From Antitrichia curtipendula (taxonomy: Eukaryota; Streptophyta; Bryopsida; Hypnales; Leucodontaceae), in assembly GCA_951230915.1 (NCBI GenBank), contig OX579638.1:34262322-34326321 (forward strand): a stretch of DNA of 64,000 nucleotides. Direction: 5' to 3'. Below the pieces are notes generated by a model. That model saw only the letters and a program-made list of their open reading frames with translations. It was not told the DNA's origin and did not search any database. The position numbers and the translations under genes were made by a program. Shown here in pieces: positions 19,094 to 59,434 of this stretch (its first letter is position 1; each line of letters opens with the position of its first letter).

Positions 19094-20323
19094 TGTGAGC
19101 TCCTAATTTGTCACTTGGAACTCGTAGAATTATTTTTTTGGAAATTTGCAATTTAAAGTTAAGAAAAATATACAAAAAGCCATAAAAAGAGTGTAGAACC
19201 AAAATAGGGTTGTAACATACCCATTATAGTATTTGGTCTAGATTTGTGGTTAGACTTAGAATTCCACCAAACCGGGCCCAAAAATAGGTAGAAAGAACAA
19301 AACGGTTGGATTTGTAGGATTCAAGTCACATAGGCCCAAAAGGGCTAAATCTCATCATGAATGTGGCAATTCATGGCTAAGTCGGTCCGGGGGATCCACA
19401 ACAAGGCCACTAGGTCGGGTCCTAGAGTTAGGTTTAGAATTCCCCAAACCCCGATTGTTAGCATGCAAGGCCACTAACGCAAGACCGGGCCCGTGGAGGA
19501 ATCTACAGCCCAAGGATGGTGTCCTAGGGTAAATCCCATGCCAGGAGTCCAACGACGAAATTGATTCGCCAAGATTCCTCTATCTGCAAAAGATTCCCGC
19601 GCCATCAATAATTCAAGGAGATGGCCAATTCATCTCCACTGACCAATTTTGCCAGGTAAGGAAACGCACCTGCACATCTTTCATGTGACCCCATGAGAGG
19701 TCTTGTGAAAAATCCCGTCATCTTCCGACTTGCCGAAGAACCTTTTGCGGATGGTCAACCCTAGTAACCTCCAACGGGAATTTCATGGAAATTACCCAAG
19801 TTGCCAGAAAATCTCACTAAAAATTAGACTAGCTTTTTTTATGTTAATAATGCGCTCCGTGAAGTTTCGCGACATTCTGATAGCAGCAAGTACCCAAACC
19901 GGCGAGATTCCTCGAGAATTAATCACGTGCCGGGGTCCCCGCCACGTTGACCGGCATTCCGGGACCATACAACGGCGGAACGAAGTCAACCAAGAGTCTT
20001 TTCCGACTCCCTCATTCCTACCGGAGACCCTAAGCTATTTACATTTCTCAAAATAGGAGGACCCCAATATCTAGGATTTTACCACAGTTTAGTTTTTAAA
20101 CTAAATTAACCTACGATGGTTTTTTGTCCTCGGTACAGGGGGCGGAGGGTTTTGGACTAAACACGGCGATCTGGAGCCAATGGCGCAATCCGTTTGACGA
20201 TTGGAGTAAATCTCCAAAAGTTAGGAGGTTGGTCCAACGTAGATAGGTAAAAGTAGTTTTTTAGGGATTAGGATGAAAATCTTTGAAGATGAGGATGAAA
20301 ATTCAAGTTGATAAGGTTACTTT
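19094..20323 (+). repeat. long repeat unit, copy 2, left part
   Basis: Begins TGTGAGCTCCTAATTTG and matches 15795-17030 closely with scattered substitutions. It is interrupted after GATAAGGTTACTTT by the CACTA element and resumes at 33182 with TTTAGAGCTCTTGAGG. Removing the element and one TTT restores collinearity with copy 1. Confidence 0.85.
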
Positions 20324-21482: not shown

Positions 21483-24400
21483 TCAAGACGTGAACTTCAT
21501 ATGCTTCGCTTTCCATAATACCGAGCTAGCCAATGCGTCACCAACTGTGTGCATATCAGGATCAGGCGCGGGTAACATGAGTGCCACCGCAGGCTGCAAT
21601 ACCTCAAGCATGTCGACACGGATCCACTCCGGGCCAATCTCCTTAAAGTGGAATTTATGTTCACCAGGCAAGAAGGAGACTTTTCCCTTCGCCACCTTCT
21701 GACGCACAGATCTAGGGTTGAAAATGAAAACTTCGTCGCCTACCATGAACTGAGGCAAGCACCGCGTTAGTTTTTACAGACTTTTACACGACAATGCGGA
21801 AATGCAACTCCAAAATCTACAGAATTACCCGTCATGAAGGTTTTGGAGGCTAGGGAGGCGGGAGCACAATGACTGGAAGTGAGTATAGGAAGCATGGACA
21901 CTCGTCTGTGGAACGTACATAAATAGTTAAAGTGCTTAAACATGACTTCCCTTCGACTGATGCGCGACTCGGTGATGACTTGTTAACGACTTCCACAACA
22001 CTATGGGTTACTGGCATTTGCACTTGGGTGTTGCTAGACACACAGAGAAACAAGCAAAGGGGGTTCATGAACACACCTTCTTAAGCGACATTTCTCGCTT
22101 TTTCTCTGCAGGCAGAGGTACCTTCGACCTTGTCTCCCGAGGTTGCTTCTCCTGTACCGGCTTCTGGTTCTCCTCCCTTGCTTGCTGCTTCTCCTGCAAG
22201 AACATCGTGACATGCAATTAGAACCATTGCTCAAATGACGATGAGGGGACATTTCCGGAGTTCGTCGCCGGACCCCTCACCTTCCATGACGTCAAGGAAC
22301 TCATATGATGACTTCTGCTGGCGTAACGCTGTCCCGGAGGCCACTGCTTCATGCGACAGTGACGGGTACTTGGATCGGAATGCACCCACATCCGGGCATT
22401 TTGCAAATGCCTCCAAGAGTGGCCACAAATTGCACTTCAGGTATTCCTTGTCCTTTGTTAGGGTGGACAGATCCCTGACATAGAACGGAGAATTTACAAT
22501 CACATTTGCCATGGGATTGCAAGCAACTCTATACAATTTACTGTCGACGATGACAGTGTTCTCAGCGGTAAATTCAGGCCAAGTGGCATAGACTCTTGAT
22601 AAGTTTTTCCCCCACGACGTGCTCGCCTCGTCCCCGCCATCCCAAAACTCGCACTCTTTACCGGACCATACAAATAATGGAACCGCATTCGGGCCCCTGA
22701 ATGGGCCAGCCATGACGGTGGGCAGGACATCTTCTACAAAAGACCTGCTCTTGCTGCCCCAAAATGCCACTGTAAAGTTCACAAAACATCGAGAGAGAAA
22801 CGGTTTGAGCCATGGCCTCAACACGACTCTCCTGCATTCCGTCTTCTAGGAAGTCCTCATCTTACTATTGGGGTTCACTTCTGTCAGCAAGCTATAGTCT
22901 AACAGCGTTCCTTGCAAGTCGAACACTACTAACTTAGAACTCATCACAGTACTCCTGCAAGTACCCTCGCGAGGTGCTTGTATGTGCACACTGCGAATTT
23001 CCAGTAGAGTACGCTCAACTGCAGAGCAAGCTTGTACCTTGGCGGATGACTTAGTGGGTCTCTTCGAATTCTTCTGTGCTGTCGCCACCTCAAGAAAAGC
23101 CGCAGGTACGGTCTTTGGACGGCCATGAAGCTCTTCCGCCAACTCTGTGCTCAATGAAACTTCCACAGGGACTTCAAGAGTAGACGCTACACTACCTCCT
23201 ACTGCGGGAATTTCTCCTCCCCCTTTTGTGAGACTTGCTTGTCCGGTTTCGGATCGGGTTGCTTCAACGGCAAGCTGCAGCGGGTCCTTGCTCTGGGAAC
23301 CAGTAGTATGGGGTGCGCACTCTCCCTCCGGCATTGCTTTGCTGTCTAGTCCCGAAGCGACTACCACCTCCACGTTGGTGCTGCCATCATTGCACTTGTC
23401 GCTACGCGCCAGTGAAGTCATATCGTAGGGATGCATGGCGTCTTTGACGTCAGGACCAGCGGCCGGTGGAGGAGTCACCATCTCCCCTGAAGGCGGATCA
23501 TTAGCTAGTGTGGACGAAGGCAGGGCAACGGAATCAGTGGCGCTCTTCCCTAGTCATGCTGGGTCCGCTGGATCTTTCCCCCTGTGCATTATTTTGAACT
23601 GCGGACGAGGGGACGCGACGTCCTCATCCGAAGACATGGTCAGAGCAGCCGCAGTCGCCAACTGCAGACGAGCACGCTTCTTTCCCTGACCTTCACGGTT
23701 GGTGGAGTCACGGTTGTCTAGTACAGACTTGGACACGGACGGACTGCCTTCATCCCGTTGCTTTCCACTGCTCATGATCGACTGGAACATTTTGCGTAAT
23801 TCTGAAATGGCTTAGGCGTGCGTCTTCCTCATACATTCAAAATTTGTATCAACGTCCCTCCTCCAGCGCTCCATGGTTGACTTTGTCACAAACTCGCGCG
23901 ACCCTGCAGTCTAGTGTCCATTCAACACACAAAAAAGTCATGTGTTACAGGAAGCCTTCATTACATCGTTCTGCCATAACTAATTCACGGTACAGTGACA
24001 AAGAATGACTGCTCGACTTCTACGTGACTTCTGATTGACTTCAGTACTCCTGCATAACTCCCTTGAGACTTCATGCTTACTCCTTTACAACTGGGAAGAC
24101 ACTACATGACCAGTACTGAGCAAGGTCATTGCAAATGACAGACGTTTTCGTCATATTATCTGACCACTTCTGTACTCAAGCGATTCGACAAGCCTTGCAT
24201 TGGGAGGCAGTCCACATTGAAAATTCTAAATAAATGACACTGCTACTGCCACTTCTGTGCGGTCAGACTCACCGGAATGGCACCTCCTTGTATTGGGCTT
24301 TCAGGCATCTCGTCCGCAACCTCATTGTCCCCTGCACTCAGAGCTCTCCCTTCCTTCTGTATGAACAACCCAAAACACACATTCAAACTTCCCATCCTCT

Positions 24401-28321: not shown

Positions 28322-31238
28322 TTGTGGACAAGGGAGGTGCAACGAGCTGCAGAATGCAATGTAACCAGGCTGCATTGCCCGTGCACAAAGTGCCAGGGCC
28401 GTCGTAGATTGCTGATAAAGAACGTGCGGAAGCACTTGGTCCGCCATGGTCGTCATTTTGGTTCAAGAAGATGGATCGAACCAGGAATCCTGGACTCTTC
28501 CGACGAGGAGTGGGAGGAGGATTTCTGGAAAGAGCCCACCCCAGCTTCTCCGGAATTAGATGCCACAGTAGACGTGCGGGGAATGGTGGACCAAGCATTC
28601 TGTCTGGCGCAGCAAATCGCAAATGCAGAGGACTCTTCGTCTGCATCGGAGGCCCCATCAAGCACGGAGCGGTTTCAGGAGGAGGTCTTGGGGGCTTTTG
28701 CCACGGCGGACTCGATCCACGAAGATTGTGTAGCGTTTAGCCTTGATGACGTTGCTGAATTCGAGGAGTGTCGAGACCAAACGCGTTTACTAGAGGAGTC
28801 CGAGGACGAGAACGTTAGGGAAGATGGCTTTCACGTGCGCGCACTGGAGGATTCCATGCATGTCCTGTATGATGGCGCGAGGTCGAGCAAACTTGCCGCT
28901 ATAGTACTCCTCATGAATCTGTGCACAATGCATGGTGTTAGTAACACTTGCGCTAACGAGTTGTTTAGTATCCTCAACCGTCATTTGCTATCGGAACATA
29001 ATGCATTGCCAAAGACGTATCATGCGGCCAAGAGCCTTACCGAGAAGTTGGGGTTGTCGTATAACACAATTCATACATGCGAGAAAGGGTGCGTGCTGTT
29101 CCGAGGAGAGCATGCGGATGCACTGCGCTGCCCTAAGTACGGGGGTCAGAGATTCAGAGATGAAGACTGGAAGGCATGCCCTATGAAAGTGCTCCACCAT
29201 TTTCCAATAATTCCGCGCCTGCAGCGAATATTTAGGAGCCCCACTTTGTCCAAGCTCATGGTGTGGCATGACAGCAACCGCAGCAACCAAGATGGAGGGG
29301 ACGGCCTCGATCGACATCCCTGTGATTTGAAGGCCTGGCAGCACTTCCACGACAACGTGGACCCCGGTTTTGCTAATGATCCATGCAATGCTCACTTTGC
29401 GTTGGCCACAGATGGAGTGAATCCATTCAAACAAAACCGCTCCTCATGGTCAACATGGCCTGTACTTCTGTTGAACTACAATGTCCCTCCATGGCTGTGC
29501 ACAAAGAAATTTTTCATACTGCTGACACTTCTAATTCCAGGGAGGGAGTCCGTGACCGTGAAAGTGTTTGATGTCTACTTAGAGCCTGTCATGGACGAGT
29601 TGTTAGAGTTGTGGAAGGGGGTTCCAGCATACGACATTACAAAGGCAGCAGGATCTCAGGCTTTCAATCTTCGTGCGATGTTGCTATGGACAATCCATGA
29701 CTTCCCCGGGTATGGGACAGTTGGAGGTTTCTCCCATCAAGGCTTTGCTGCGAGCCCGTGGTGCGGTATGGAGTTGGGTGCAGAGCACTCTGTTGAATTA
29801 GGAAAGCAAACCTACAATGGGACACGTCGCTGGTTACCTGAGTCACATCCGTATAGGTTAGCCCAAATGAAGGACCACTTCAACGGCGCTATGGAAATCA
29901 GACCCAAACCAAGGCCAGTGACAGTGGAAAAGCAGTTGGCACACGCGGCCTTCTTTGAGGCGTGGAAAGCAGGCGGCCACAGAGAAGGCGACAGAGGCGA
30001 CCCATCCAAAGTGCATGGCGTCAAGCGTTTGAGCATTCTCTTCAGACTACCTTACTGGAAGGTAAGTGTCCAATTTTGTCAATTATTAGTTCTCTATAGT
30101 TAGCAACTGATGCACAACTTCATGGAGACTCTATCGCAACCTTTTGGTTTCTCTAAAGTGGCCAAGAAGTTGTCAAAAAGTGGCAGTGGTAATGCAAGAC
30201 TTTGTGGCCACTTCTGTGGAACTGGGGTATGTACTCCGTGGCCCACAGCGGCCGCCTCGCGGGGTGCATCATGTGGCCTGTCTTTTCGGACTTGGACCGA
30301 GCCTTCTGAATTTTGTGTGTGGATGTCAAATGCAGGACCTTCTGATTCACAATACCCTTGACGTCATGCATTGCAAAATGAACTTGGCAAAAAACTTCCT
30401 GAAAACCATAACAAGGAAGAAAGACACTGTGAAGGTGAGACGTGACTTGCGGCGACGAAATATACGGAAGCACCTATGGCTTACCCCGCATCCAAGAAAA
30501 GAAGGCAAAATGGTGAAGCCAAGAGCCAGTTACATATTCACCGAAGAAGAATTTGAGAAGTTTGCGAGCTGCATAGAGTCCTTGAGAACGCCAAGCGGGT
30601 ATTCATCTGACCTTCGCAGGAGCATAAGGAAGAAGAATTTTGGGGGCCTAAAATCACATAATTACCACGTGTTGATGCAGCAGATCTTGCCGCTGGCTTT
30701 GCGAGGTCTATTGAAACCCGATCCTCGTATGGCTGTAATGCGAATGTACAAGGTATTTCGGCGCCTCTGCACCAAGGTATACAATCCACACGATTTTGCG
30801 TCCCTCGATGCCGATGTTGCCGAGAGCATGTCACTTCTCGAGATCGAATTCCCCCCTTCATTTTTTGACATAATGACGCATCTACCGTACCATCTTGCGA
30901 AGGAATTGGACCTGTGTGGACCCGTGAGTGCAAGGTGGATATATCCGGTGGAGCGGTACATGAAGGTGCTGAAGAATCATGTTCGCAATCTTGCCCGACC
31001 CGAGGCTTGTATGGCAGAGGGATACTTGAAGGATGAGTGCCTGGGTTTCGTTACGGAGTACCTCCAGAGGTTCGAATTCACGCAAAGACGTGTTTGGGAC
31101 AAAGACGAGGAGTACGGGGACGCCGAGGAGGTAGTACAAGGTGCTGGAAAGGCGTACTTGATGCCCACTGCACTACGAGACTTAGCACACAAGTTTGTGC
31201 TCACGAATGCTGCGGTGATGGAAGATTTCTATGCGTGA
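28322..31238 (+). CDS. CACTA TnpD transposase (Transposase_21/DUF4218)
   Basis: Catalyses cut-and-paste transposition of En/Spm-type elements. Exon 28322-30061 starts with a Transpos_assoc-like zinc segment (HCPCTKCQGRRRL...KHLVRHG). The Transposase_21 core follows, with the landmarks FPIIPRLQRIF, LATDGVNPF, WPVLLLNYNVPPWLC, DVYLEPVMDELLELW and RAMLLWTIHDFPGYG; the D residues in DGVNPF and DVYL are candidate acidic catalytic residues. It ends LPYWK at donor AAG|GTAAGT (30061). The acceptor AAATGCAG at 30335 opens DLLIHNTLDVMHCKMN in phase 0, giving an intron of 274 bp. The rest is a DUF4218-type region ending EYLQRFEFTQRRVW...MEDFYA. The first exon has no ATG, so a short upstream exon is expected. 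The cysteine pair usual after the GYG motif is altered (SPWCGME). A GTGAAT at 31233 may be a further donor leading to the DUF4216 part. Confidence 0.9.
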
Positions 31239-35190: not shown

Positions 35191-36060
35191 TGACCCAGAG
35201 TTAAATTTAGGAGTAACAATTTAGAGTTAAAAATAGGAGTAAAAATTTAGAGTTAAGTTTAGGAGTAAAAAATCTAGAGTTAAATTTAGGGGTAGAAATT
35301 TGGAAGTTAAATTTAGGAATAAAAATCCAGAGTTAGATTTAGGAGTAGAAATCTAGAGTTATATTTAGAAGTTGGAAATTAGAGGAAAAGAATTAAGCTT
35401 AGGGTTAATTGTAGGTTTGAACCTTCCGAGAAAAGTGTCATACCTCCAACACTAGTCTTAAACACTCATGGAAGGAACGTAAAGGTTCCCCGCTCACGTA
35501 GTTAGGGACGTTAGAAATGACGCCAACTACCCAGCCAACCCAATACATAGTATAGACAGTTAGGGAGCTAGGAATTACCAATCACCTTTGCTCATCACAG
35601 TCAGCTTGTTAATTACCCATGCAAGTCTAGTAGTATTTTCTGCCATCCACGACACTTAGGAAACATTAGCACAAAAAAGATCCATTGCTTGGAAGGCACA
35701 GTGGACCGTGCTCACAACCCCCCCATATATTTAAAAGGTAGATAACGGCATAGAACCTGGTCGATGTTCGCCTGATTACCGAGGGCGGGTAATCTTGCGC
35801 CCACAGATAGGTAGGTAGGGAGTTAGGAATCGCCATCACCTTTGATCATCATAGTCAGCTTGTTAGTTACCCATGCAATTCTAGTAGTATTCATTGCCAT
35901 CCACGACACTTAGAAAACGTTAGCACAAAAAAGATCTATTGCTAGGAAGGCATAGTGGACCGCGCTCACAACACCCCCATATATTAAAAAGGTGGATAAA
36001 GGCATAGAACCTGGTCGGTGTTTGACCGATTACCGAGGGTGGGTAATCTTGCGCCCACAT
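35191..36060 (+). repeat. linker copy plus ~250-bp tandem duplication
   Basis: 35191-35551 repeats the linker 18661-19087. 35552-35815 continues with TAGGGAGCTAGGAATT... to TAATCTTGCGCCCACA. 35816-36060 repeats 35560-35815 with about 10% differences and again ends GCGCCCACA. The sequence 35200-35814 is the inverted partner of 14256-15015. Then the truncated gypsy LTR starts. Confidence 0.7.
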
Positions 36061-36061
36061 G

Positions 36062-36791
36062 CGGGTAGTTGTGTTTGCAGGTTTTGGAGAATACAAGAAG
36101 TCCCCGGATGTTCTCTGTATCCGGTTTCCGGGAGTAGCGTCTCCGTCTAGGGACTTGGGTCGGGGGAATCTGTCGTTGTAGTGATGTGGGGATTGTAAGG
36201 GTCTCCTGTGTGACCTTCTATGTCCGGATTAGTTCCTGGGTTAGTTGTGAGGAGAAACTGAAGTCCCATTCTTTTATGTCTTTTGTTGTTTTTCTTTGAG
36301 TTTAGCTTCTGACACTTTAAAACTTGAAGGGTAGGAATTCACGCAGCCTTCCTTAATTGCAAATTACGGAACCCTCTGTTATAGAGGCTAAACTTCGTAT
36401 CCAGTTACTAGTTTGAGGATCCAGAAGCGGAATTTGGAAAAGGCACAGGATAATGACACTCCTTCCGATTTCCAATTCTATATCCTAGGATCAGAGTGGT
36501 ATTATTGAACAAGAGAGTGGTATATTGTTTAGGATCATTCCTTGTTGTTGTTGTGCGGATAAGGACTACTATAGGATAGTCCGACCGGAGGGAAACTAAG
36601 CACGTAGGTATCTTTAGCTTTCCGGTTTAGAATCCGGTTTACTGGTGGTTGTGGTAACTTCCGCATCCTATTCCGGTCATCACTATAGAAGTTAATCGAT
36701 CTCTGTGGGAACGATATACGAGTCATCTTAAAGGCGTTTTAAGTACTTTGGAACGTCTACTGGAGGGATTCTACTTTCTTGTGCTACGACA
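36062..36791 (+). repeat. 5' LTR, 3'-terminal part only
   Basis: GTGTTTGCAGGTTTTGGAG... to ...CTTGTGCTACGACA, matching 58706-59434 almost base for base. It ends in CA just before the PBS. The homology starts abruptly at 36062, so the left part is deleted or was never sequenced into this locus. Confidence 0.88.
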
Positions 36792-43383: not shown

Positions 43384-43395
43384 CGGAAGATGCGG
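43384..43395. repeat. left target-site duplication of the MULE
   Basis: CGGAAGATGCGG, repeated at 56224-56235 on the other side of the element. The exact length (9-12 bp) depends on where the terminal repeat starts. Confidence 0.75.
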
Positions 43396-43511
43396 GAAAT
43401 GCTGGTATGTGAGCGTAGAGCGGCGAGCAGTGAGCGGGAAGTGGGAATTGGTGAGCGTAGAGCACATAATTTTAAAAGTGTGAATTTGTGAGATGAAAAA
43501 AAGCTAAAGAA

Positions 43512-43800
43512 ATAGATGAAAGTAGATGAAAAAGTGAATGGAAAAGTGGATGAAAAAGTAAATGAAAAATGGTTGAAAAAGTAGATGAAAAAATAAATGG
43601 AAAAAAGTGAAGAAAAGGATGAACTTTTCAAAAGAACTCATGAAACTGATGAGTTGTTCAAGAGAACTAACAAAAATGACTTGGTGAAATGGATGAAATA
43701 TTATTAAGGGTTTAGAAAACATCAGATGGATGAAAGTATGCCAGAGTGGATGAAAGTCAATGGCAGGAAAATTTGGATGGAAAGTGAGGACAAAAGAATA
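43512..43800 (+). repeat. MULE left subterminal repeats
   Basis: Many copies of a (A)GTAGATGAAAAA / GTGGATGAAAGT word in one orientation. The reverse complement occurs at 55865-55980 inside the right end. Confidence 0.75.
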
Positions 43801-43860
43801 AAACCAAGTGGACAAAATTACAGAGAGAAGGTTTAGTTATGGAATCAAAAATTGTTTAAA

Positions 43861-44206
43861 CCAGTTGTAGGGTAGGATTTAGAGTACACCCATGGCCGTG
43901 TACGTAACTTCTTCTATGACCATGGATTTGATAGGGAGTTCCCTGTCTTGCCCTACCTATTACAAAAGGTGGATAGGGATCCAAAGAATTAAAGATACAC
44001 AATGCATCAGTTGTTTTGTGGGATATGATAATTGAATTGACAAAATTATAGAAGCCTCAGAATATAACACACCATCAATTTTGGAAGCATCGCCGTTCAA
44101 ATAAGAAGTGAAATGCATACAATTACTGTAAAATAAAAGAGCAACTTTGGCCACAAATCAACTGTATCCAATGCGAATGTACAGCATCCTCCAAGAAGCT
44201 CATGAA
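43861..44206. other. MULE left non-coding region
   Basis: 3' flank of the minus-strand gene. A CTATGACCATGGATTTG word here is matched by CTATGACCGTGGGTTTTG at 60514, in the left end of the second element. No gene is seen. Confidence 0.4.
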
Positions 44207-47200
44207 CTAAAAGGCTGACATGGAACTACCCTCGCTATCCGAAGTATGTGAATTTGACTCTTCTGCAATCGAATCTACAAACTGTAGAACACGGGGATCT
44301 ACCAAATGGGCCCTAGAAGATGGCCGAGGGTTTAGGGCAATGAAATCCTGGGAAAGAGCCTCAGCATACACCGGGAGATGAAACGGTTTAGGTGGACTCG
44401 GAAAAAATCAAGGATTTGCAAAAAAAGGAACTGCCTTCGAGAACCTCAAATCTTGGCCTTGCCTACAGAACACGGTAATCCATATATTAGATATTTAAAA
44501 AAACAACTGATGCATTGTGGCTAAATGGAAGAGTTCAATGGATGACTTACTTACTGAATCGTGATGTTTTGACGACATGCTAGACCACTACTTCTTCATC
44601 GTCTAATTCACCGAGAACTAGCGTCGAGGGGTCTGGCTGTGCTTGACCAACCACAGGTGGTCGAAGAATTGGAGCAATGAGGGCATCAAAGATGTCCTTA
44701 TCCTCCTCAAATGCCAGAACATGGCGGCGCGTAGCGCGACATGCTTGAATGGTTGCACCTATGCACCAGTTAACACGTTAGGCAAAGATGTTAAAACGAG
44801 GTTGGACCCTATACAAATTGGATGAGGCAAATCCGATTTAGGATAGAGTCAAACCTGTTCCCGCTGTGCAATCGACAACCACGTCCCCTGGTGCAGAACA
44901 TGCCTCCACAAACATCTGCATGAATTGTCTCGCTTTCTCACGGGGACCACGCCACGGAATGTTGCCATTCATGGTGATGTCCTCCTTGTTGCAAAAGTTT
45001 TGTAAAATGTCATCCCTAGCAACGTTCACACCCACAACATCATGGGACGGAACAAATTGAAATGGAAAGTCCCCAAGCGTCTTCGGACCCGACTCCTTCA
45101 TGAGAAGAGAGATGGCAAATCTCATAGTCTGCAACAGAGAAACAATGTGAGTGAAGAGAGATGGTGCAAACTGAAACAATAACCTTTCAATAAACATCAT
45201 GGAAATTTACCGTCTTTGTAGGGTCGGTTGGTGAAGTCAAATGAAGATGATTCATGCCAAAATAAGTTTCGAGAATGCGGAAGTTGTATTCCCGTGAACA
45301 TCCCAAAATGTGACTTCTGTGTGGAGGAGAGGGGGCAGGGTACATCAATAGGAGGCCGCCATTGTCGTGGAGATACTCCTGCGCAAAGTCAAAGACCGGA
45401 AGCAGATAGTCATCCTTGAACTCATTCCACTTCGGAATGGGAGCAGGTGGGCAGGAAATGGTAGGAACATGGAGCCCTTCCGGTACATCCACAATCATCA
45501 AGTCCACTGCGTCGGTAGTTCCACTGACTCCATTGAAGGAGCGGGTTCTGTCACCGGAATGCTGCAAGGCGAAATAGACATGAAATGAAATTAAAACACA
45601 ATGCGGTTGGCAACAATTTAAGTGACAGTTTGGGACATACTCATTTTTTATTTGATTTAAATGAATTGTGCACCACCCATACACAAGGATATATGTAAGA
45701 AAGAAGAAGACTAGGGAAATCACCCATCACACTTACCATTGCCAAAAATGATAGAATAGCAGCATAAGCCGGTGAGCCTAGGTCAAAACTATCTAGCGCC
45801 AAGTTCAGCACGCACTCGTCGATGTCAGGCACAGGCTGAAGATTTTGATGAGTAGGCGTCAATCCATGCACCAGACGCTCCTACGTGAGGGAAAACCCGG
45901 ATGAAGTAATGTTTCCATCAGCTGTACTTGTAGCTGGTTCAGGCAATGGAGTCTCCTCTTTCCTTGAGCGACGCTTTTTCTTCTCTTTCTCTTGGTCTTT
46001 CTCACTCTGCAATACCAGTCTCTTCCTCTTGCTTTGCTCGGACTTTCTTGTGGCTTCCTCTAATTTATCCACCTTCTTCTTGTCAGATAACTTTCACCTC
46101 TTCACGGCCTTGGCACGGGCTTCGGGATCCAATCCAGCAAACTCATCGAACTCAGCATCTGCTACCACTGAATCTTTCATTGCCTGAAAAAGAGACTCCT
46201 CCTCGGGTGGAGTGATGCCAAAGTTGCACTCGAGGTACCAAGGACACGCCTGTAGATGAGCACTGGTCCACTTTTGCAACTGTGTTGGGGAGAACATACA
46301 ATCTTGAGAGGATCGGTCCAACCAAGTCGTCAGAAAAGGCGGCAAGTCTTCCTTCTTAACAGCTTTTTTCCCGTACAACTCAAATTTGAAATACCTATTG
46401 ACAATGAGAGAGATTTTAGTGACAAAAATAAATAAGGCATACGTCAATATAACCATACAAAATAGCCATTCAGTGAATAAAAGCCTATTACTGTGACTCT
46501 ATTACAATCAGTGCCATCTTCAATAGTGAGGTGGTTCTGGATTAGGGACTAGAAAACCATGCATACAGAATATCGAACTTACTCTCTCTCGGCACCGAGA
46601 CCACATATGAATGAACAACCCCTTGCATGGTCTGGTATCAAGGAATGAAAATTGTTCAGCCCTGCCGAACCAAATCATCTCTCTCGATACCAAAACAACC
46701 AGGTTGCGAGAAAGAGGTAAACACAACTAAACAATTTAAAGTTCAGCTAAAACATTCTTCACATATATATTTTTGATCAAAGGTGAAGATTAGGTATAAA
46801 TACCTGTAAATCACACGCTTTACAGTGAGGTCGAATCCTCTATACTCCTTAAAGGTGTCCGACTTCTTGAAGGCATCGGCGCCTTTGAATACCCCCGTGT
46901 AGGCGTGATCCCATAGCTTCATCCGCCACGACTCAATATACTCCACTAGTGACTTAGGCTCAGTGGGGACGGTCATATCAATAGCTACGTTATCCGACCG
47001 GGTGATGGAATCGAACATCTCCAAAGTTGCCTCCTCAATCTGCATGGACCATTTTGTAAGCGACAGTAGAAACGTCCAAGATAGCAAGCCTGCTCAGATT
47101 GATCCCTAGCAATATGAAGAGTACACCCACAATAATATTAATTAACAACTGAAATATAATAATAAGGGTGGAAACTCATACCCCATTATAGTAACAGGCT

Positions 47201-48195
47201 TTTGCAAGGAAGACAACTAACTTCTCTTCGTTCACTGGGTGGGGTGGAAACCGTCGTGCCTCTCTAGTGGGACCACTGGAATTCATCCAATTGAGCCACT
47301 TCACTTTAAATGATGGAGCAACGTTGGCTGTAGCAATGAGTTGCAACTTCTCTAGCGTAAGTTCCTGAACGGCATAGAGGCTCCAGTGCCGTTCAATCTG
47401 CAAAATGAAAGCGAGAACTCAATACAAGAAATATATAATACATTTCAATTCATGTCAATTAGAAAATGAATGGGTCATACCTCCTTCAACCAGTCATCAC
47501 CGAGTGCGGGATTAGCAACGGCCACTATCTTGGAGAGTTTTTTGTAGTGTCTCTCTGTAGCGTCCTTGATAGAGGATCTCATAGCCGCTGCCACCCCCTC
47601 ATTAGTGATTTCATCTGCTGGGGTTCCCTCATGGTATTTTCGTACACTAGAATCAGCCGCTGAGGCAATCTCTTGCTGAAATGATGAAAATACAATTACA
47701 ATACAGGTAAATATGGTGAAGGATATATCAAATAATGCACCGACATGGACTCATGCCGTGGAACAAGATGAGCAAAATCAGTGAAGAATCAAGGAGATTA
47801 TACCTTAAATATGAAGCTGGTGAATACGTCGAGGGGCATACTGTACCAAGTTTTCCGAAAACTCAGCTGACAGGTTTTGACTTCCTCCGCGCTCAGTAAC
47901 TCATAGAATTTCTCGATCTCCATAACACCGTACTTCTGAACCCGATATAGCGTGTGGACAAGATTTGTCTTCACGTGCGAGTTCTCTATGTGCCTGCCCG
48001 GTGAGTTCACAAAGTGAACCGTTAACATAAGAAATCAGTGGTTCAAGATAATAACAGTAGTGAGTGATGATACACATGTACACAAATGGGAACGACGTAA
48101 GGAGAGGCTTACTTATTAATATTGTGCATTGCTTGCATTGCCATCCCAATACGATTCCGCGTGTTGAGGATAATGGAGTCCACGTTGATATGCTA
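44207..48195 (-). pseudogene. class-beta DNA methyltransferase-like part, copy 1
   Basis: Minus-strand exons, approximate: 47816-48020, 47482-47690, 47180-47400, 46806-47040, 45730-46397, 45215-45560, 44857-45128, 44570-44757, 44207-44476. The catalytic part has the circular order of N4-cytosine/N6-adenine methylases. First comes the motif IV region (AVDLMIVDVPEG where DPPY is expected) and a GLLLMYPAP strand. NGNIPWRGPREKARQFMQ follows. At the end is the motif I/SAM loop GDVVVDCTAGTG, spliced to ATIQACRATRRHVLAFEEDKD, which parallels GDLVLDPFAGSGTT...GR..IGIE. A lysine-rich coiled-coil segment (45881-46072) and an acidic tail (ending 44207) flank it. In-frame stops at 48193, 46094, 45881 (TAG/TGA/TAG), 44580 and 44408 make this copy a pseudogene. 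The copy at 60.8-63.9 kb lacks them. Predicted nuclear role: modifying DNA or binding SAM. Activity is doubtful because the DPPY box is altered. Confidence 0.72.
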
Positions 48196-48770
48196 GTCCT
48201 TCTCACTACTATGAAGTCGCTGGATGTGATTCATCCAGGCAATACGTCTGTGGTTTCCATCACAGACGAAGAACTTGTAGTCCACAAGGTACTTCAAGGC
48301 TGGAAGGGAGTTGAAATGATCATTGAAACTATCATTCACGGAATTCCATATGAGACCCCACTCCTTCTTCTTGTCATCAGTGAAGCTCCCTGTCTTCCCT
48401 TGCTCATCTGATATAGAGACGTAAAAAACTCGCGCTCCCTCTTCATATCCCCAGGTAAACCGGTTCTCAAGTAACGTCAAGTCCGACACTAATGTCGGTT
48501 GAACCATTGGCATCGGAACCAACCTGCACAAAGGTATTTTCATCCGACAAAGGTCGTTTGTGGTGAGCTTCAAACTGTTGACGACGCAGACCGTATCCAG
48601 AGTTTGTGTCCTCTTGATGTCATCTTCAAGAAGTCCAGGATCCACTCCGGGAATGCTATCATCCTGCAAATCATCTGCATCTGAGTCTGAGCCAATGATA
48701 GGCTGCTCGTTGAATGGCTCAACTGCAGTGCCACTGGAAGTGGTACGTGGTGTGTTCCTGAGACGCACCT
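48196..48770 (-). pseudogene. ParB-like domain exon of the methyltransferase gene
   Basis: Acidic leader (IGSDSDADDLQDDSIPG), then about 120 residues ending FFVCDGNHRRIAWMNHI. The DGNHRR-A pattern after a hydrophobic strand is the signature of the ParB/Srx fold (consensus like VDGxHRxxAA). In bacteria and phages, ParB-like domains often sit N-terminal to amino-methylases of this class, the same order as here. The N-terminal half of the domain is weakly conserved. The TAG at 48193-48195 follows HSSEKD, after which the frame continues (HINVDSIILNTRNRIGMAM) to a GTAAGC donor. Assignment rests on one good motif plus the fusion partner. Confidence 0.55.
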
Positions 48771-48857
48771 GAAAGATGATAAGTGGAGTTAATACAGAAC
48801 AATGTCCCGTCGATTTTAAGACACAAAGTACATCAAACACTATTATATGGTATGTCA

Positions 48858-49350
48858 TTACAGAATATCCATTCCGTGTGCAAGATATAATCTGTCGTTA
48901 TACAAGTCCATGTAACAATATATCTCAAACTCCGCACTGACATGCCGTTGAAAGTAACCTATACGAACCGCAGCAGAAAATGAGGATGTCATCGTTGGAT
49001 TGATAACCAGAATCCACATCCTCATGATCGCATGTGCAATACTGAGTGCTAGCATCAGATACCGTAACAGTAGCTGCTAAGTCGTTGGACCCACATGAAG
49101 TGCAACAGGAGTCCAAGGAGGGCATGCGTCCCTCCCCTTACGGTTCCCCCCATCCTAACTCAACATCAAGCAGATGAACGTGAAGCTGTACCAGCCGCGG
49201 GAGACTGGGAACGGGAACTATTGGGCCACCTTCGCCACCATCAAGGTCGTCAAACTGGGGAAAGACCTCCTCGACAGGCCTCGGATCCGTAGGAGAACTA
49301 GATCCACCTAACTTTTGAGGTGGGATATCCATAGCGGCCCTTCGCAGCAC
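48858..49350 (-). CDS. N-terminal exons of the methyltransferase gene, unclear
   Basis: Two or three short minus-strand open stretches upstream of the ParB exon: 49138-49350 (MDIPPQKLGGSSSP start), 48925-49125 (Cys-rich: SCCTSCGS, YCTCDHEDVDSG) and 48858-49055. Cysteine pairs suggest a small zinc-binding piece, but the phases cannot be fixed and I recognise no family. This region is the 5' end of the gene before the 180-bp repeats. Confidence 0.35.
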
Positions 49351-49450
49351 CTACAAACGAATAACAGAGTCATTTATCTCCAATAGACAACTCAATAATT
49401 AAATTCGTGCCATGCAAATTAAAGTCCATAATGATGCAAGCTCGAGCTTA

Positions 49451-50015
49451 CCTTTTGAAACTCAAAGACCAAATCCAAAATAAATATAAAAGCAAATTCA
49501 CCGCACCCTAGTGCTTTCAACTTTCCCCCAATTCAAGCATACGGTAGAGAGCGAAAACCCTCTCTCGGTCCCGAGAGGGCCCTCGGCCGACCTGTCTGAT
49601 GCATAGGAACAACGCAGCCTGACCAAACTCACATTTTGAAAATCAAAAACTGAAACCAAAAAAATATAAAAGAGAATTCACCGCACCTTAGTGCTTTCAG
49701 CTTTCCCCCAGTTCAAGCATACGGTGGAGAGCGAAAACCCTCTCTTAGTCCCGAGAGGGCCCTCGGCCCACCTGTCTGATGCATAGGAACAATACAGAGA
49801 AACCAAGCTCACATTTTGAAAATCAAAAACTGAAACCAAGAAAATATAAAAGAGAATTCACCGCACCCTAGTGCTTTCAGCGTTCCCCTAGTTCAAGCAT
49901 AGGGTGGACAGCGGAAACCGTCTCTCGGGACCGAGAAGACCGAGGGCCCACCTGTCTGATGCATAGGAACAACGCAGAGAAACCAAGCTCACATTTTGAA
50001 AATCAAAAACTGAAT
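49451..50015. promoter_or_regulatory. three 180-bp tandem repeats between divergent genes
   Basis: Units start at 49451, 49631 and 49811, with a partial fourth at 49991, exactly 180 bp apart. Each has AAATATAAAAG (TATA-like), TTCACCGCACC, TAGTGCTTTCA, a palindrome (CTCTCGGTCCCGAGAG in unit 1, worn in units 2 and 3) and CACCTGTCTGATGCATAGGAAC. They lie upstream of both the methyltransferase (-) and the transposase (+), so I infer a shared or duplicated promoter, or a binding array for an element protein. Confidence 0.7.
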
Positions 50016-51180
50016 CCAAACTTCGGTCCCCGTGGATTTACCTCAACTTCGGTCCCCTTGGATTTCATGTTTCGAGCGCCAGCCGTCGCCAAATTAGTTG
50101 GTGCAGTTGCCGCCGCCATGTTCCCGTCCGCGCCAGTACCGCCCATCACCAAACTTCTCCCGCTCCACAGAATTCGGCTTCCATCCATGGAGAGCTTTAA
50201 AAGGAAAACGAGAGAGCGATGGACAATACAACAAAGGGAAGAGATCATGAAAGCAGCGGGTGAGAATAAATTAATTCCCAAGTAACCGTAAGTGTCTCCA
50301 GAATGATTGCTCGTGCGCTGCCTTTCGCACTACTTGGATAGTACGTTTCCCATTCGGTGGTCGACGGAGGTAATTGGGGAATTTGATTAAGTGAATTGGC
50401 ATGCTTCGTGCTGACTTCGGGGCATTTGTTTGAATTTTCTCTTCGTGCCGCCGCCATCTCGTCGTCACTAGGTGTTGTCATACTTGATAGTCGTACTGAC
50501 TAATTTATTATTCTGGCACTTCATCAACGTAATCGTGCAGTTCTCTGGACTGCTTAATAATGTGGATTGCCCACTCCGAATTTCTGTTTCATTTTATTTT
50601 ATGGCATTCAATGGTAAGTGAAGTTTCTGAACGCATTCGGTGAATCTGTTGTTGTATGCTACCGAATCCTTTCCACATTGTCGGGGATGTTTCTAATAGT
50701 TCAAGATAGGAATTGACTCAGACATCAAGTGAACAGCGGCTCCACGGGTGTGTTGAATACTTGTGGAATACGAGGCCCAGGCAATACATTTTCAATAACT
50801 TCCCCCATTTGCATCTGAGCATTTCTAGATGAGGGCTTTATGTATATACCAATATCACGAATTTCCTTGTCATTAAGGTCTAACAAATGTGAGGGGATTA
50901 ACCTTAATGAGATCTAGATAGATTTGATGACTGCCTTAACTCAGCCGTCAAATTTCATATGTTTTGCCGTACATTTAAACGGCTGAATGTGTGATTCAAT
51001 TGCATCTGGTATTCTTATATCAAGAATCTCGCTATTTCAATTTAGGGTGGTAGGGCCCATTATTAGAAGCATTTGTCATTGTTGTTTAACTTAGGTGTTT
51101 CATAGTGTTTTTCTAACGTACTGTAGGTTTTCTTCATTTCGAGCATAGATAGGTTTAGCTCCCGCCTGGGAACCTAGTCG
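50016..51180. other. 5' region of the transposase gene
   Basis: Holds a short open stretch at 49959-50285 (RPTRVT-less, basic ending) that I cannot assign, and AT-rich leader-like DNA up to the ATG at 51181. An intron-containing 5' UTR is plausible (TGTAGG and TTTCTTCATTT near 51120). No other gene is seen. Confidence 0.35.
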
Positions 51181-53268
51181 ATGGAGGAAATGACACATTC
51201 TGCGCAAAGGGTCGTTGTCAGTGCAAACGGCGAAAGAGTTCCTATATTGTTTGATGTGGACGAGAATGGACTTGCTGTAGTGTCAGCTTCTCGATTATGC
51301 CTACGATTTCAATTGAAAGAGGGTTCGGTCCATTTGGACGAAGAAATCTATGATAGCGAGTCTGGCATACTCAGCCACACTATTGGTCAAACTCCCTCAA
51401 ACGATGGAGTGAATACTAGGTGGATGCTCAAATCTGGAAGGTATAGAGCGTACGGAGTGTCGGAATTCAGTAGATTGACATCGTCGGAAAATGCTCCACT
51501 GTATCGGTCGTCGTCGTGTTCATTTCAAACCCCCCTCCTCAATCGTGTTAAAGTAGAACCATTGGAACAGAATGTCATGATCCTTAGTGATGATTTAGAC
51601 GTAGATTCTCCAACGAAGCCTCCCGCCACTATCGATTCCAGTTCGGGTCAATGTTCTCTCACTCCAGAGTTTATTGCTCAGGGTTCTACTGAGCCCAAGA
51701 AGGTCGTATCTGTGATGGACGGCTTAAGGGGACTGCGTGGCCTGAAGGGATGTCGAAACGTTTTGTCAAAGCTAAACTATGACGCAATTGACATTCACAG
51801 AGTCTCAGTACTGCCTCCATCTTTCAACGGCAATGTCATTTTCGAACTTCCTTCCCTACAGGCCTCCGGTTCTACTTCCCAGGCAAGGCAAATGTCTGGC
51901 ATGGATAAACTATATGACGGACATGTGTGGTCCAAAACTGTGACCACCAATATCATTAATCCAATGGGATTAGTGTTTCGCACGTCAATTTGTGTAGGGC
52001 ATTTGCGCTGTGTTAACCCTACTTGCGAGTTTCTATCTCGAGTACACCGAACCATGGATGTAAACGAATTAGAATGGGAAGGATTGGCATCTACACCACT
52101 TGATGTTGGTCACAAGCATCCTCCCGGATCAACTCTTGTCTGCAGGATTTGCAAGGAGCCTCCCTCTTGTATTGCTTGATGCGATGTGCGTGTTTACTAT
52201 GTTGCAGGAAACCCGAAACTCACCCGGGCTTTCGTTCATTTGGGAAGTCACGAGCATCCAGTGAAGGATGGTGAGCTTAGAGACATGAAGGAGAAAACAC
52301 GGTCTCTCATTGAGGAGCAGTTGGAGAGAACACCATCGGCAACAAATTCCTCCATCGTCATGGAGGCTATTAAGGAGCTTCTTGGAGGCTTACTCCTTTG
52401 TCCGGATGGAGAGACTCCAAAAGCAATGGACTTCGAAGAGCTTGTCCCAGTTTTGGACAAGTGCAAATATCTGAGCTCACCTTCTATTCGGAACGAGGTA
52501 ACTTCATTTAAGTACCTGAGGAGATTTGGAGTGATAGATAGCATCACCAAATTGAGAGGATCCAGTACTTGGGCATTCGTCCAGGAAAGCAAATTTCCAG
52601 GTCAAGGTACCGATGTGGATAAGGTTTTCGTATTTAAAATGTCAAAAGTTGGACCAGGTAGCGGAGTGGACTTGGTGAAACGCATGCAAACCGGAGGAGA
52701 TCTGGCAGATGCTTGGGTAATGTTTGACCATGTTAAACGTGTAAAAGGTTGGACGACCATGGCATACCATGTTTATGACTCCATGTACTGCCGTGTCATG
52801 ACTATTGCTTGTTGCGACATGCAATCGGAAGACTGTGCAGCACAAGTTTTGTTTTGGAAAAACCTAAACTCAGTCCTTAATAGGAATGGAGTTGTGGACA
52901 TTCAGTTTAAAGGTTTCATGGCGGATAGTGCCCAAGCGAATTGGAATGCTGTGAGGTTAGTTTACGATTCTGGTGATATTGGAGATCCAATGGACAACCG
53001 AGAGAGGACGTGCCTTTTTCACTGGACCCAATCCATGGAGAAGCACACTAAGGCTGAAATCAGAGGGGATTTACAAGATCAGCACCGTTTGCTTTGCAAG
53101 CAATACAAGAATGCTACGTCGCCAGAGCAATCTGAAATGCGATACCTTGCCATCAAATCATGGTGGTTGTCATCAGGTGCCACCACACAGGAAGGAGTGC
53201 AGAGACTGGAGTTGTAGCTATCATTTTGGCATTTCCGCTATCGCCAATGGGGTGGATTCATGTAGCTG
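51181..53268 (+). pseudogene. MULE transposase, zinc and DDE part
   Basis: A single frame from ATG 51181, broken only by TGA 52177-52179, TAG 53215-53217 and TAG 53263-53265, then a GTAAGG donor. Residues 1-250 are poorly conserved and acidic. Then comes a cysteine-rich zinc segment (CVGHLRCVNPTCEF ... LVCRICKEPPSC, then C after the stop) leading to TRAFVHLGSHEHPV, the layout of WRKY/FLYWCH/GCM-like zinc domains seen at MULE N-termini. The catalytic core has WVMFDHVKRVKG, the GFMADSAQANWNAVRLVY block (second D) and ERTCLFHWTQSMEKH, like the MULE D...A..+C..H pattern. LSFWHFRYRQWGGFM follows. Family call from motif order; a relative such as another zinc/SWIM transposase clade is possible. Confidence 0.72.
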
Positions 53269-53739
53269 GTAAGGCGGTGTCTTTTGCCATTTGGAATTGT
53301 AATTCTTTGCTAGGTCTGTCGTATTATGTCTACCGTCTCATCATTTCATTGCTATCAGATGGAATGCTCTGTTTTCCTAAATTATTCATTTTTTGTTTTT
53401 TAGTGCCATATTATAATCTCCAATTATTGCATGGAATAGGATGTCCGTCGATGCCTCTCGGTACAAAGAGGATCTGATGGGGTCGCTAGAATATTTTTAT
53501 TTCTATTTCCATTATTGAAAGCATCAATGTACACTCAAGCATATCTTCATTCTGTGCTCTGAGTTTGCAACTTCTAGTTGCAAGTCTCTCTCGGTACCTA
53601 GAGAGTTTTGATTGTAGGATTGTGTTTAGGTTCAATGGACTCAATTCTTAGGCCCTCCTTAATTGCAATCGCCATTTTGTATGCACCTGGCTTAGCTGAG
53701 ATGTCCCCTAAAACTAAATTTGTACTACTCCCATTTTTT

Positions 53740-55208
53740 GGCAAAATTTAACTGAATCTGAGTTGGCTGAAATGCCATCTTGTAACTTGGCGGAGACTGT
53801 TCACAATAAGTGGCTACAGCAGTCTGGAAACCGGGGTAATGACTTATACATTGCCACGGTAGACAATTTTGTGAGGGCGTTCATGCAGATAGTGAAGTAT
53901 TATCAGTACTTGAAGGGTAACCAATCTGGAACCGGACCAGGAAAGGAAGAACTACTATTACAAGTAGCCCAGAGGTCGGCCGAGCGAACTGGTAATCCAA
54001 AGGCACTAACTGAAGCTATTTCAAATATTCCAGGGGTGGAAGAATTTTTTGATCGAGAGCCCCACCTAAAAGGTGAAGAGATTTTTGGATCGCAGAAGAG
54101 GAAGGTAGACATGCCATTAAGATGTGAATACGATTTGCATAGACCAGACAAGGTGAACTATTCCCATCCCCGCGTACAAACAAGATCAGGGAGAGCCAGT
54201 ACAAGTGTTCCAATTTTGAATACAATTTCGGAAGATATTTCTCCAATTGTGGATTCGGGACCCCAACCAGTGATCTTAGACGACGGGACCTTAGGACAAC
54301 ATTAGCATCCAAATTTGACGCACGTATTCTCTATTCAAGAGAGCATGTGTGATGAAACGCAATGGCATATTGCACGATTGCCTAAGAATTCTACGAAAGC
54401 GTGCTTCGCTCTTCAGGCAATTACGAAGAAGAAGTGCACTGCGCCGATTGTTCAGAACAACATTGCAACCGCGGCCCCAACATATACAGGTATGATGCTG
54501 AATTATAGGAAAAACTGCAATGAACGTATGCAATTCTTCTTTTGCAATGACGATAATGAAAGGTGTGTAAAAGGGACGCGGAGGAAATGGGTGTTATCAG
54601 TACCACCTGTTCCGAAGATTTGGCTGATCAAAATGGGCACAAAACTCTCAAAGGCTGAGATTCTGTCTTTGGAAACGTCTGGTATCCAACTTCCACAACG
54701 GGAAGTTATTTCACCAAGGAGACTCTTCGGCGGTGAAGTAGGAGTTGAATTGGTCCATGCTTATCCTATTCCAGCGTCCCCTCACGAGTATCCGTCAATT
54801 CGAGCGGGTAAACTTGTTCGGAGGAATCCAAAGGCTCCAACAGTAAAGCACCAAAACAATTGTGCTTCAGCTTTAACATTGAGTGGAAGAATTCAGAAGG
54901 TAACTATGGTTCCTCATCCGGGATTTGGGTGCATAGTGTCATTGAAGTTTGGTTTAGAGCCCCGTGAAGAACTGTACTTGTTGACAATTTCCTGTTTTCC
55001 TGACTGCACCTGTCCAAATTTCAAGGAGATGAAGCTGAAGTGCTTGGGAAAGCGTGGAACGTGGGCAAACTGCAAGCACCTTTATTTCATATTCACGGTC
55101 ATTTGCAACTTGCAGTGTACAACAGATGGCTTCATTCATGCAGCAACATTCAGTTTTAATGAAGTCAAACATGTTCTTCTTAGCGGCATATTGAATCATT
55201 TAAAATGA
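53740..55208 (+). pseudogene. MULE transposase, C-terminal part with SWIM finger
   Basis: The continuing exon is open from about 53740 to the stop at 55206, with one TAG at 54303-54305 in the same frame. It has NLAETVHNKWLQQSGNRG, VRAFMQIVKYYQYLKG, FGSQKRK, and a C-terminal SWIM-type zinc finger: CFPDCTCPNF...GTWANCKHLYFIF (CxC then CxH). SWIM fingers follow the transposase core in plant MULEs and in their domesticated FAR1-type relatives. The intron 53269-53740 has a GTAAGG donor; the acceptor is not certain. Confidence 0.75.
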
Positions 55209-55860
55209 AATGAGATCTTGTTGACACGTAGTAGTGTCACTTCCCGTGTTTACTACTTAATTTAATGAAAGTGTAGTGAGACTACAAGAGCCACTACTTT
55301 CACTTCATTACCCTATACATGTTTATCAAATTTGTTTATTTATATATAGTAACTGTTGTATGTTCTTCTTTGTATTTTTCCATCTCTGGATTCCACTCTG
55401 CAAGCCTAGTAGTGGAAAAGCGTTGTAGACTTTAACTGTTTCGGAATTCTAGTTAGATCCCACATGGCACCCTAAACAGTATCCCTTAAATCCACAACGA
55501 TACCACGGTCATAGGATACTCTCTACCATTGGTCACAGGAAATACTAGCCACATCTTAATGTATGAATAGGTCCAAGTCTTATTTTCATTTTTGGGCCTA
55601 GTCCCGAACATTTTTCTCTTTGATATTGATCAATCACAGGAACTCCTAAATATGTGGTCATAGGGGTTGATGTGAAGGTCTTATAGTTTTGAAAGGTGAA
55701 GGACTCCTTTTTAATCTGAAGCTCATTTTCAAAACCCTAAAACCCTGAAGCATATGCTTGATGTAGAATTCTGAAGGCTTATCATAAATAATTTTCTACC
55801 CGTAAAGGACTACTAAATTACCCCCATAAGAACCCTAAACCAACAAGTTCTTGATGTATT
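55209..55860. other. MULE right non-coding region
   Basis: 3' flank of the transposase gene, AT-rich, no gene. Merges into the inverted-repeat end after about 55860. Confidence 0.45.
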
Positions 55861-56223
55861 GTCCCCTATTTCTCTATGTACTTTCATCCATTTTCCATCT
55901 GCTTTCATTCATTAGTTCAAATACTTTCATCCATTTATTCATCTACTTTCATCCAACTTTCATCTACATTCATCCCTACCTTTTTAATCCCACGAATGTC
56001 ATTTTTCTTTCATTCTTATCCCAATTTCAAAAAACCATTCTTAAATCAAAATGAAACATTCGCCCAATTTTTGGGGAAATTTCACCCAATGTTGAGGTAT
56101 ATTTTATCCAATTTTTTCCCTTGTTTTATTTAATATCTGAAATTCTATTCCTAAACATACGCTCCCCGCTCACCATTCTACGCTCCGCGCTCGCCGCTCC
56201 CCGCTCACATACTAGCACCGTTG
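55861..56223 (-). repeat. MULE right terminal/subterminal inverted repeat
   Basis: Reverse complement of the left end design: CATCCA/CTTTCATC words (55865-55980), then CGCTCCCCGCTCACCATTC..., and CGCTCACATACTAGCA at the tip. The duplicated target CGGAAGATGCGG follows at 56224-56235. Confidence 0.75.
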
Positions 56224-56586
56224 CGGAAGATGCGGAGGACTGTTGAACAGAAACAATTTCCGAGTAAGGAGACGAACGGTCACTTTTAACGGGTGGGAAA
56301 ACCGGGCGGAGAAACAAAGAAGAAGGGTCATGTTCAAACCCTAGTCATTGTCTCTTTCCTATCCGGTGTAGTCTGTCTTCTAAGAGTGTTTCTTAGTAAT
56401 TGAGGAGCTAATCTGAAGAGTATTAGTGTTTTGTGATTCCGGTTCCTGTGGGACGGAAGTCTGACTGCCATCTTCTTAGGCGAGGAGCAGTGGTGTGAAG
56501 GAGCTATCTCGAGCGAGAGGGAGCCTTGAGTGACTGTCATTTTCTTGGGCAAAAGTCTGACTACCTAGTTTAGACCTTGAAGCACC

Positions 56587-58323: not shown

Positions 58324-58705
58324 GTAGAAAGCAGCTCTATAGTAGCTTTCCGGTCCGATGAACCTGGACAGTCAAATCCGGATTTTTCGGATCTAAGATC
58401 CACTTTTTCCGGAATCTGCCGCAAGTTTGTAAAGTCAATTGTTAGTGGATAGAGAATGACGCGTATCATTCTCTGATCCTTAGTTTAGGATTTTCAAGAG
58501 GCCTTTAGGGTTTTCTTTGTGTTTAGTATTTAGTGGGATTGAAGTTAGCTTCAATCTTGGGCCATGCAAGACTGAACAAGTTTTCTACTTGTGTTCTTTT
58601 CATTTTCCATTGCAAAGTATTCTGATTTCCACTTCCTAAGTGTTGGTCTGAAAAGTCTCAACTTTGGGTTGGTATGTCGGCAATGCTTGAACCATTGTTT
58701 AGTGC

Positions 58706-59434
58706 GGATAGCTGTGTTTGCAGGTTTTGGAGAATACAAGAAGTCCCCGGATGTTCTCTGTATCCGGTTTCCGGGAGTAGCGTCTCCGTCTAGGGACTGG
58801 GGTCAGGGGAATCTGTTGTTGTAGTGATGTGGGGATTGTAAGGATCTCCTGTGTGACCTTCTATGTCCGGATTAGTTCCTGGGTTAGTTGTGAGGAGAAA
58901 CTGAAGTCCCATTCTTTTATGTCTTTTGTTGTTTTTCTTTGAGTTTAGCTTCTGACACTTTAAAACTTGAAGGGTAGGAATTCACGCAGCCTTCCTTAAT
59001 TGCAAATTACGGAACCCTCTGTTATAGAAGCTAAACTTCGTATCCAGTTACTAGTTTGAGGATCCAGAAGCGGAATTTGGAAAAGGCACAGAATAATGAC
59101 ACTCCTTCCGATTTCCGATTCTATATCCTAGGATCAGAGTGGTATCATTGAATAAGAGAGTGGTATATTGTTTAGGACCATTCCTTGTTGTTGTTGTGCG
59201 GATAAGAACTACTATAGGATAGTCCGACCGGAGGGAAACTAAGCACGTAGGTATCTTTAGCTTTCCGGTTTAGAATCCGGTTTACTGGTGGTTGTGGTAA
59301 CTTCCGCATCTTGTTCCGGTCATCACTATAGAAGTTAATTGATCTCTGTGAGAACGATACACGAGTCATCTTAAAGGCGTTTTAAGTACTTTGGAACGTC
59401 TACTGGAGGGATTCTACTTTCTTGTGCTACGACA
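58706..59434 (+). repeat. 3' LTR segment shared with the 5' LTR remnant
   Basis: Matches 36062-36791 with only about a dozen differences. Short open stretches in both copies on the minus strand are part of the LTR and not genes. Confidence 0.9.

Follow-up and report, generated by a model that had tools for sequence, protein, structure and literature searches.

A decayed, probably MULE-type transposon in a moss genome with a ParB–methyltransferase-like gene and candidate palindromic binding sites

Background

A gene that joins a ParB domain to a methyltransferase is already known as a kind of transposon cargo. In Sola1-1_Ec32, a 21.5-kb Sola1 element of Ectocarpus published in 2025 (PMC12477816, available excerpt), a 1104-residue protein with ParB and N4/N6-methyltransferase domains is encoded opposite the transposase; the excerpt cites green and red algal cases, and suggests self-binding and epigenetic self-modification of the transposon sequence. 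The original prediction for the locus described here called ParB plus methylase familiar from bacteria and phages but not as a standard cargo of plant MULEs; the idea was anticipated, since both the cargo and the suggestion of self-modification had been published for algal transposons. Retrotransposons with captured DNMTs are a further case of transposable elements bearing a DNA methyltransferase gene (PMC5890265, available part), and the present element resembles them in carrying a DNA methyltransferase-like one. Bacterial and phage ParB-methylases likewise combine a ParB/Srx domain with an N6/N4 methyltransferase and differ from the gene described here in that the latter has introns. The enzymes in the study of DNMT-capturing retrotransposons are reportedly C5-cytosine methyltransferases without a ParB domain, and we know of no ParB–methyltransferase-like gene among the standard genes of MULEs. 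With the ParB–parS and KorB–operator systems the locus shares the ParB fold and a short palindrome arrayed beside the gene, the binding being putative here.

The locus lies on contig OX579638.1 of the moss Antitrichia curtipendula; the whole stretch of 64,000 nucleotides analysed is called the window. We hold with moderate confidence that it contains a decayed MULE-type two-gene transposon whose intact copies encode a ParB-like protein that would bind the element's own palindromes, and in which the methyltransferase half is probably non-catalytic. The matches listed from the literature searched contain no prior mention of a MULE-type carrier, of the DVPE change described below or of a conserved palindrome for a ParB-methyltransferase.

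Anatomy and decay of the element

The transposon (43396-56223, 12.8 kb, one copy analysed) is bounded by terminal inverted repeats, with an exact 12-bp duplication at its flanks:

43384..43395, plus strand: left flanking duplication CGGAAGATGCGG, two exact copies, 0.00 expected
43396..43460, plus strand: left terminal inverted repeat, inverted pair, 75% over 60 nt
44580..44758, minus strand: last modelled ParB–methyltransferase exon, FEED (motif II acid)
44855..45128, minus strand: exon with the motif X region and motif I GDVVVDCTAGTG
45211..45561, minus strand: exon with the motif IV position, DVPEG
45737..46394, minus strand: exon with a charged coil, two in-frame stops
47993-47804, 47675-47481, 47397-47182 and 47039-46804, minus strand: four middle exons, each preceding intron common to the relative L001 in position and phase
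48113..48768, minus strand: ParB-like exon, CDGNHRRIAW, one in-frame stop
49141..49350, minus strand: possible 5' exon, open frame only
51181..53268, plus strand: transposase exon 1, with zinc segment, D..D core and CLFHW, three in-frame stops
53763..55208, plus strand: transposase exon 2, SWIM-like CTCPNF...ANCKH, one in-frame stop
56158..56223, minus strand: right terminal inverted repeat of ~60 bp, partner of the left one
56224..56235, plus strand: right flanking duplication CGGAAGATGCGG, exact copy

The matched terminal repeats and the duplication around two divergent genes had been predicted, and both are as expected. The terminal repeats are long, as in MULEs, and the duplication is probably a 9-10 bp target-site duplication extended by a chance GG; set against the usual length in MULEs (about 8-11 bp), it is exact over 12 bp, and the 10-bp reading gives symmetric ends. 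Both genes inside the repeats contain introns, one encoding a transposase with a SWIM-like CxC..CxH and the other a ParB/Srx-fold, N6/N4-methyltransferase-like protein. The joining of ParB-like and methyltransferase-like segments also held: they are exons of a single gene within the transposase's pair of terminal repeats, with nine exons and eight introns in our splice model and a product of ~1000 residues. The element is thus like Sola1-1_Ec32 (PMC12477816, excerpt) in having both domains in one protein of ~1000 residues, inside a DNA transposon and on the strand opposite its transposase, and unlike it in having a SWIM-type rather than a Sola1 transposase and nine modelled exons. The window element also has a palindrome array and DVPE at motif IV.

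In our own splice models, four in-frame stops interrupt the transposase and three the ParB–methyltransferase gene, with no frameshifts. With several stops in each gene this copy makes neither protein whole, and the copy is dead. No second copy of the complete element was encountered. The whole transposon lies between two direct repeats with TG..CA ends (36060-36791 and 58703-59434; 732 bp, 97.5% identical), which differ at 18 sites, 17 of them transitions. RNase H (reverse-transcriptase) and integrase zinc-binding domains lie between these repeats, ahead of the transposon, and we infer that the pair are LTRs of a Ty3-like retroelement, although comparison of their 5-bp flanks gave no match. 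On that reading the transposon has inserted into the retroelement, with the pol region on one side and a reading frame at 56587, downstream, on the other; no empty site was encountered. If all seven stops postdate insertion between the LTRs (2.46% apart), 2.1 to 3.2 would be expected and the probability of at least seven is 0.006 to 0.043, a weak hint that this copy had been defective before its transposition. An origin of the stops by CHG deamination, considered while all of them seemed to derive from glutamine or arginine codons, was dropped because all 52 ParB-exon relatives covering one stop site have tryptophan there.

The transposase

Exon 1, with stops read through and residues 200-694 scored, has 168 relatives (E <=0.001) among 6968 candidates, with identities of up to 77% in the best 120 of the 168, and its core is well conserved among them, showing a D..D..C.FH pattern by eye. 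Pfam was less informative. We found no family naming a transposase in the window exon or in 16 relatives; the MULE DDE domain PF10551 did not match the window protein, nor any of these 17 sequences at E 1. The SWIM family PF04434 reached 10.5 bits against a cut-off of 19.6 (E 0.49) in exon 2, where CTCPNF..ANCKH is recognisable by eye, and did not match the whole read-through protein. Of the MULE layout in the original prediction, the D..D core, CLFHW and the SWIM-like CxC..CxH are recognisable by eye; the MULE family of Pfam was not reached. Because the long terminal repeats, the 9-12 bp duplication and the SWIM-like and D..C.FH patterns are shared with MULEs, we keep MULE as the likely superfamily.

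The ParB–methyltransferase-like gene and a distant relative

The whole product matched none of 7134 candidates in a homologue search, perhaps because such genes are represented in the database only exon by exon. With the ParB exon by itself as query, 93 relatives were retrieved among 175 candidates. Against phage records, tblastn with the whole product gave 83 records at E 0.1 (identity <60%, best E 2e-3), of which the best 20 match at 20 to 35% identity and at the methyltransferase end only. No relative emerged from viral contigs, whether these were scanned with the ParB alignment, the SWIM exon or the methyltransferase part.

When genome_contigs, a set of single genomes from each of 84,980 prokaryote species, was scanned with the ParB alignment, one locus emerged: L001, of 4691 bp. 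Its contig was binned under a cyanobacterial name, and since the modelled gene has five GT-AG introns, spliceosomal in appearance, we read it as a mis-binned eukaryotic contig. The spliced gene is intact (1040 codons) and 31.7% identical to the window product (297 of 938 aligned residues). All five L001 introns coincide, in alignment column and in phase, with introns of the window gene, which has eight; the L001 splice sites were picked by eye by someone who knew the window model, and frame and stops leave little room for other choices. No transposase was found on the 4.7 kb of L001.

A ParB/Srx fold, the structural check proposed with the original prediction, was obtained, on a relative instead of the window product; a fold of the ParB exon from its lone sequence had a pLDDT of 33 and was discarded. 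The GxxR-type active-site motif of ParB/Srx is present, every position of CDGNHR agreeing in 52 to 54 of the 54 sequences in the alignment. The ParB part alone matched no PDB sequence at E 10 and nothing in PHROG at E 5. A viral fold search with the ParB model placed a phage protein named ‘DNA methylase’ at rank 3, and its top row, above the ParB-named ones, is a phage protein annotated as ectoine synthase (E 1e-3). No helix-turn-helix was recognised in the ParB–methyltransferase protein.

The other half is related to amino-methyltransferases, as had been proposed from its class-beta order. PF01555 matches the window gene above the cut-off (32.3 against 26.7 bits) over profile positions 163-218 of 221, that is, in the last quarter, and the methyltransferase part matches phrog_3008 (2.2e-10) and DpnA from the PDB (0.0016). 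The motif IV position precedes motif I, which is the beta-class order, and both the SAM-binding motif I (DCTAGTG) and the acidic motif II (FEED) are present. At motif IV itself the pattern [DNS]PP[YFW] is replaced by DVPE in both genes, window and L001. In the window the position reads VDVPEG, its placement coming from an alignment outside the Pfam match with three short phage enzymes (234 to 255 residues, not ParB fusions), in which DVPE stands against DPPY, DIPY and DPPY and the D and second P are invariant. L001 moreover has DITASTG at motif I, with one glycine gone, and its 20.7 bits for PF01555 are below the cut-off. With DVPE in both genes, the intact L001 among them, canonical methylation is doubtful, and so is the original view that the transposon could modify its own DNA through this protein.

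A palindrome shared by two loci

A 14-bp palindrome, TCTCGGNNCCGAGA, stands in tandem repeats just upstream of the ParB–methyltransferase gene both in the window element and in L001. It presumably differs from bacterial parS, and no ParA gene was recognised by eye in the element's open frames. The sites of the window are as follows:

46587..46600, no strand: palindrome TCTCGGCACCGAGA, 0 mismatch, in a ParB–methyltransferase intron
49445..50020, no strand: tandem array, 3.2 copies of a 180-bp unit, palindrome in three (49563 and 49923 exact, 49743 two mismatches)
53456..53602, no strand: two palindromes in the transposase intron (53456 two mismatches, 53589 one mismatch)

The window array, placed between the two divergent genes, reads TCTCGGTCCCGAGA, a decayed copy and TCTCGGGACCGAGA. 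L001 starts with four tandem repeats of ~107 bp, the last of which ends ~150 bp short of the gene; TCTCGGATCCGAGA is at the centre of three of them and a decayed form at that of the other. The sequence flanking the palindrome differs between the two loci. In L001:1-400 the palindrome is enclosed, in some of the tandem units, by a larger dyad of about 60 to 90 bp.

Across the 64-kb window, sites with at most one mismatch number four, all inside the element (0.08 expected); with at most two mismatches there are six, again all inside, which is less striking (1.73 expected, six being reached in 1 of 100 shuffles). L001 has three sites, all of them exact; with two mismatches allowed, 0.12 would be expected there. 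TCTCGGNNCCGAGA is the sole perfect 6-g-6 palindrome (g 0 to 6) common to the element and L001, while L001 and the other 51 kb of the window share none. When 300 sequence pairs were generated by a first-order Markov model, not one pair shared a palindrome occurring at least three times (mean shared 0.03), and among 90 half-sites of the same composition TCTCGG alone has sites (at most one mismatch) in the element or L001. These statistics were computed after the motif had been spotted, and they represent two loci, the tandem copies within each not being independent. We propose that the ParB-like protein encoded by the element uses these palindromes as operators or as parS-like sites.

Discussion

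From the computed anatomy and decay of the element, the ParB fold of a relative, the relationship to methyltransferases, DVPE in two genes and the shared introns and palindrome, the following picture can be drawn, in which the conditional steps, like the MULE assignment, are our reading of sequence. Intact copies would make a protein with a ParB/Srx fold and a beta-class methyltransferase-like half. The ParB-like half may bind the palindromes TCTCGGNNCCGAGA in the element's own DNA, much as ParB does at parS and KorB at operators, and the bound protein would load onto the control region common to the two divergent genes, where it could regulate both or shield the element. As the SAM-site motif is kept and the canonical catalytic tetrapeptide is lost, the methyltransferase-like half is more likely to be a SAM- or DNA-binding module than an ordinary amino-methyltransferase. 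Tentatively, and with less assurance, one may go further and see in this locus a family of eukaryotic DNA transposons with its own ParB–parS-like module, a catalytically altered methyltransferase fusion and a protein–site pair kept over ~70% protein divergence.

An unlikely alternative is active self-modification, the view of the original prediction and in part of PMC12477816 (excerpt), in which the methyltransferase half, directed by the ParB half, would place 6mA or 4mC on the sequence of its own transposon, either to counter silencing or to time transposition. The ParB-methylase architecture and divergent order recalling Sola1-1_Ec32 (same excerpt), the retained SAM motif I and the PF01555 score of the window gene speak for it, but DVPE in both genes and, in L001, the missing glycine and the low PF01555 score speak against. 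Improbable, in our view, is that the ParB-like domain acts as a nickase or NTPase aiding excision or repair in transposition; the ParB/Srx fold is compatible with this, and nuclease activity has been reported for some ParB-domain proteins, among them a Bacillus ParB-methylase said to nick DNA (PMC5512222, available part), but the shared palindrome array would be left unexplained.

There is also a small chance that a host or foreign gene was captured once, in the style of Pack-MULEs, or stands between the repeats of this copy by accident. Among contigs of at least 30 kb, 3 of 29 that carry a ParB-exon relative coincide in length with one of 46 that carry a transposase relative (555475, 225379 and 185737 bp), the transposase contigs having been drawn from the best 120 of 168 relatives and the number of contigs per assembly not being known; among the matches listed, no contig below 30 kb is common to both lists. 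So low a proportion favours single capture, yet the nearest transposase relative (77%, among the matches listed) is on one of the three common contigs, and the evidence leans, suggestively only, towards the two genes travelling together. Further points against single capture are the divergent order resembling that of the Ectocarpus element (PMC12477816, excerpt), the confinement of all six window palindromes (at most two mismatches) to the element, whose transposase intron holds two, and the 93 matches of the ParB exon.

The purpose of the algal ParB-methyltransferase genes has so far only been suggested (PMC12477816, excerpt), and under the preferred reading, of a ParB-like protein with sites in its own element, a conserved candidate site makes binding testable. 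The altered motif IV implies that methylation should not be assumed for such proteins. If protein and palindrome do bind, they would constitute a ParB–parS-like system serving a mobile element inside a eukaryotic nucleus.

Other features of the window

Elsewhere in the window, an open frame of 824 codons (5577-8051, minus strand) encodes a DYW-type PPR protein, a hallmark of land plants, with very similar internal repeats. A reading frame at 22231-22824 (minus strand) matches NLI-interacting-factor phosphatases (5.9e-7), and a direct repeat of ~1.24 kb (15786-17032 and 19085-20323) is 93% identical. A further element at 28322-31238 (plus strand), with matches to Transposase_21 (1.4e-60) and DUF4218 (1.1e-33), is probably of the CACTA/En-Spm type.
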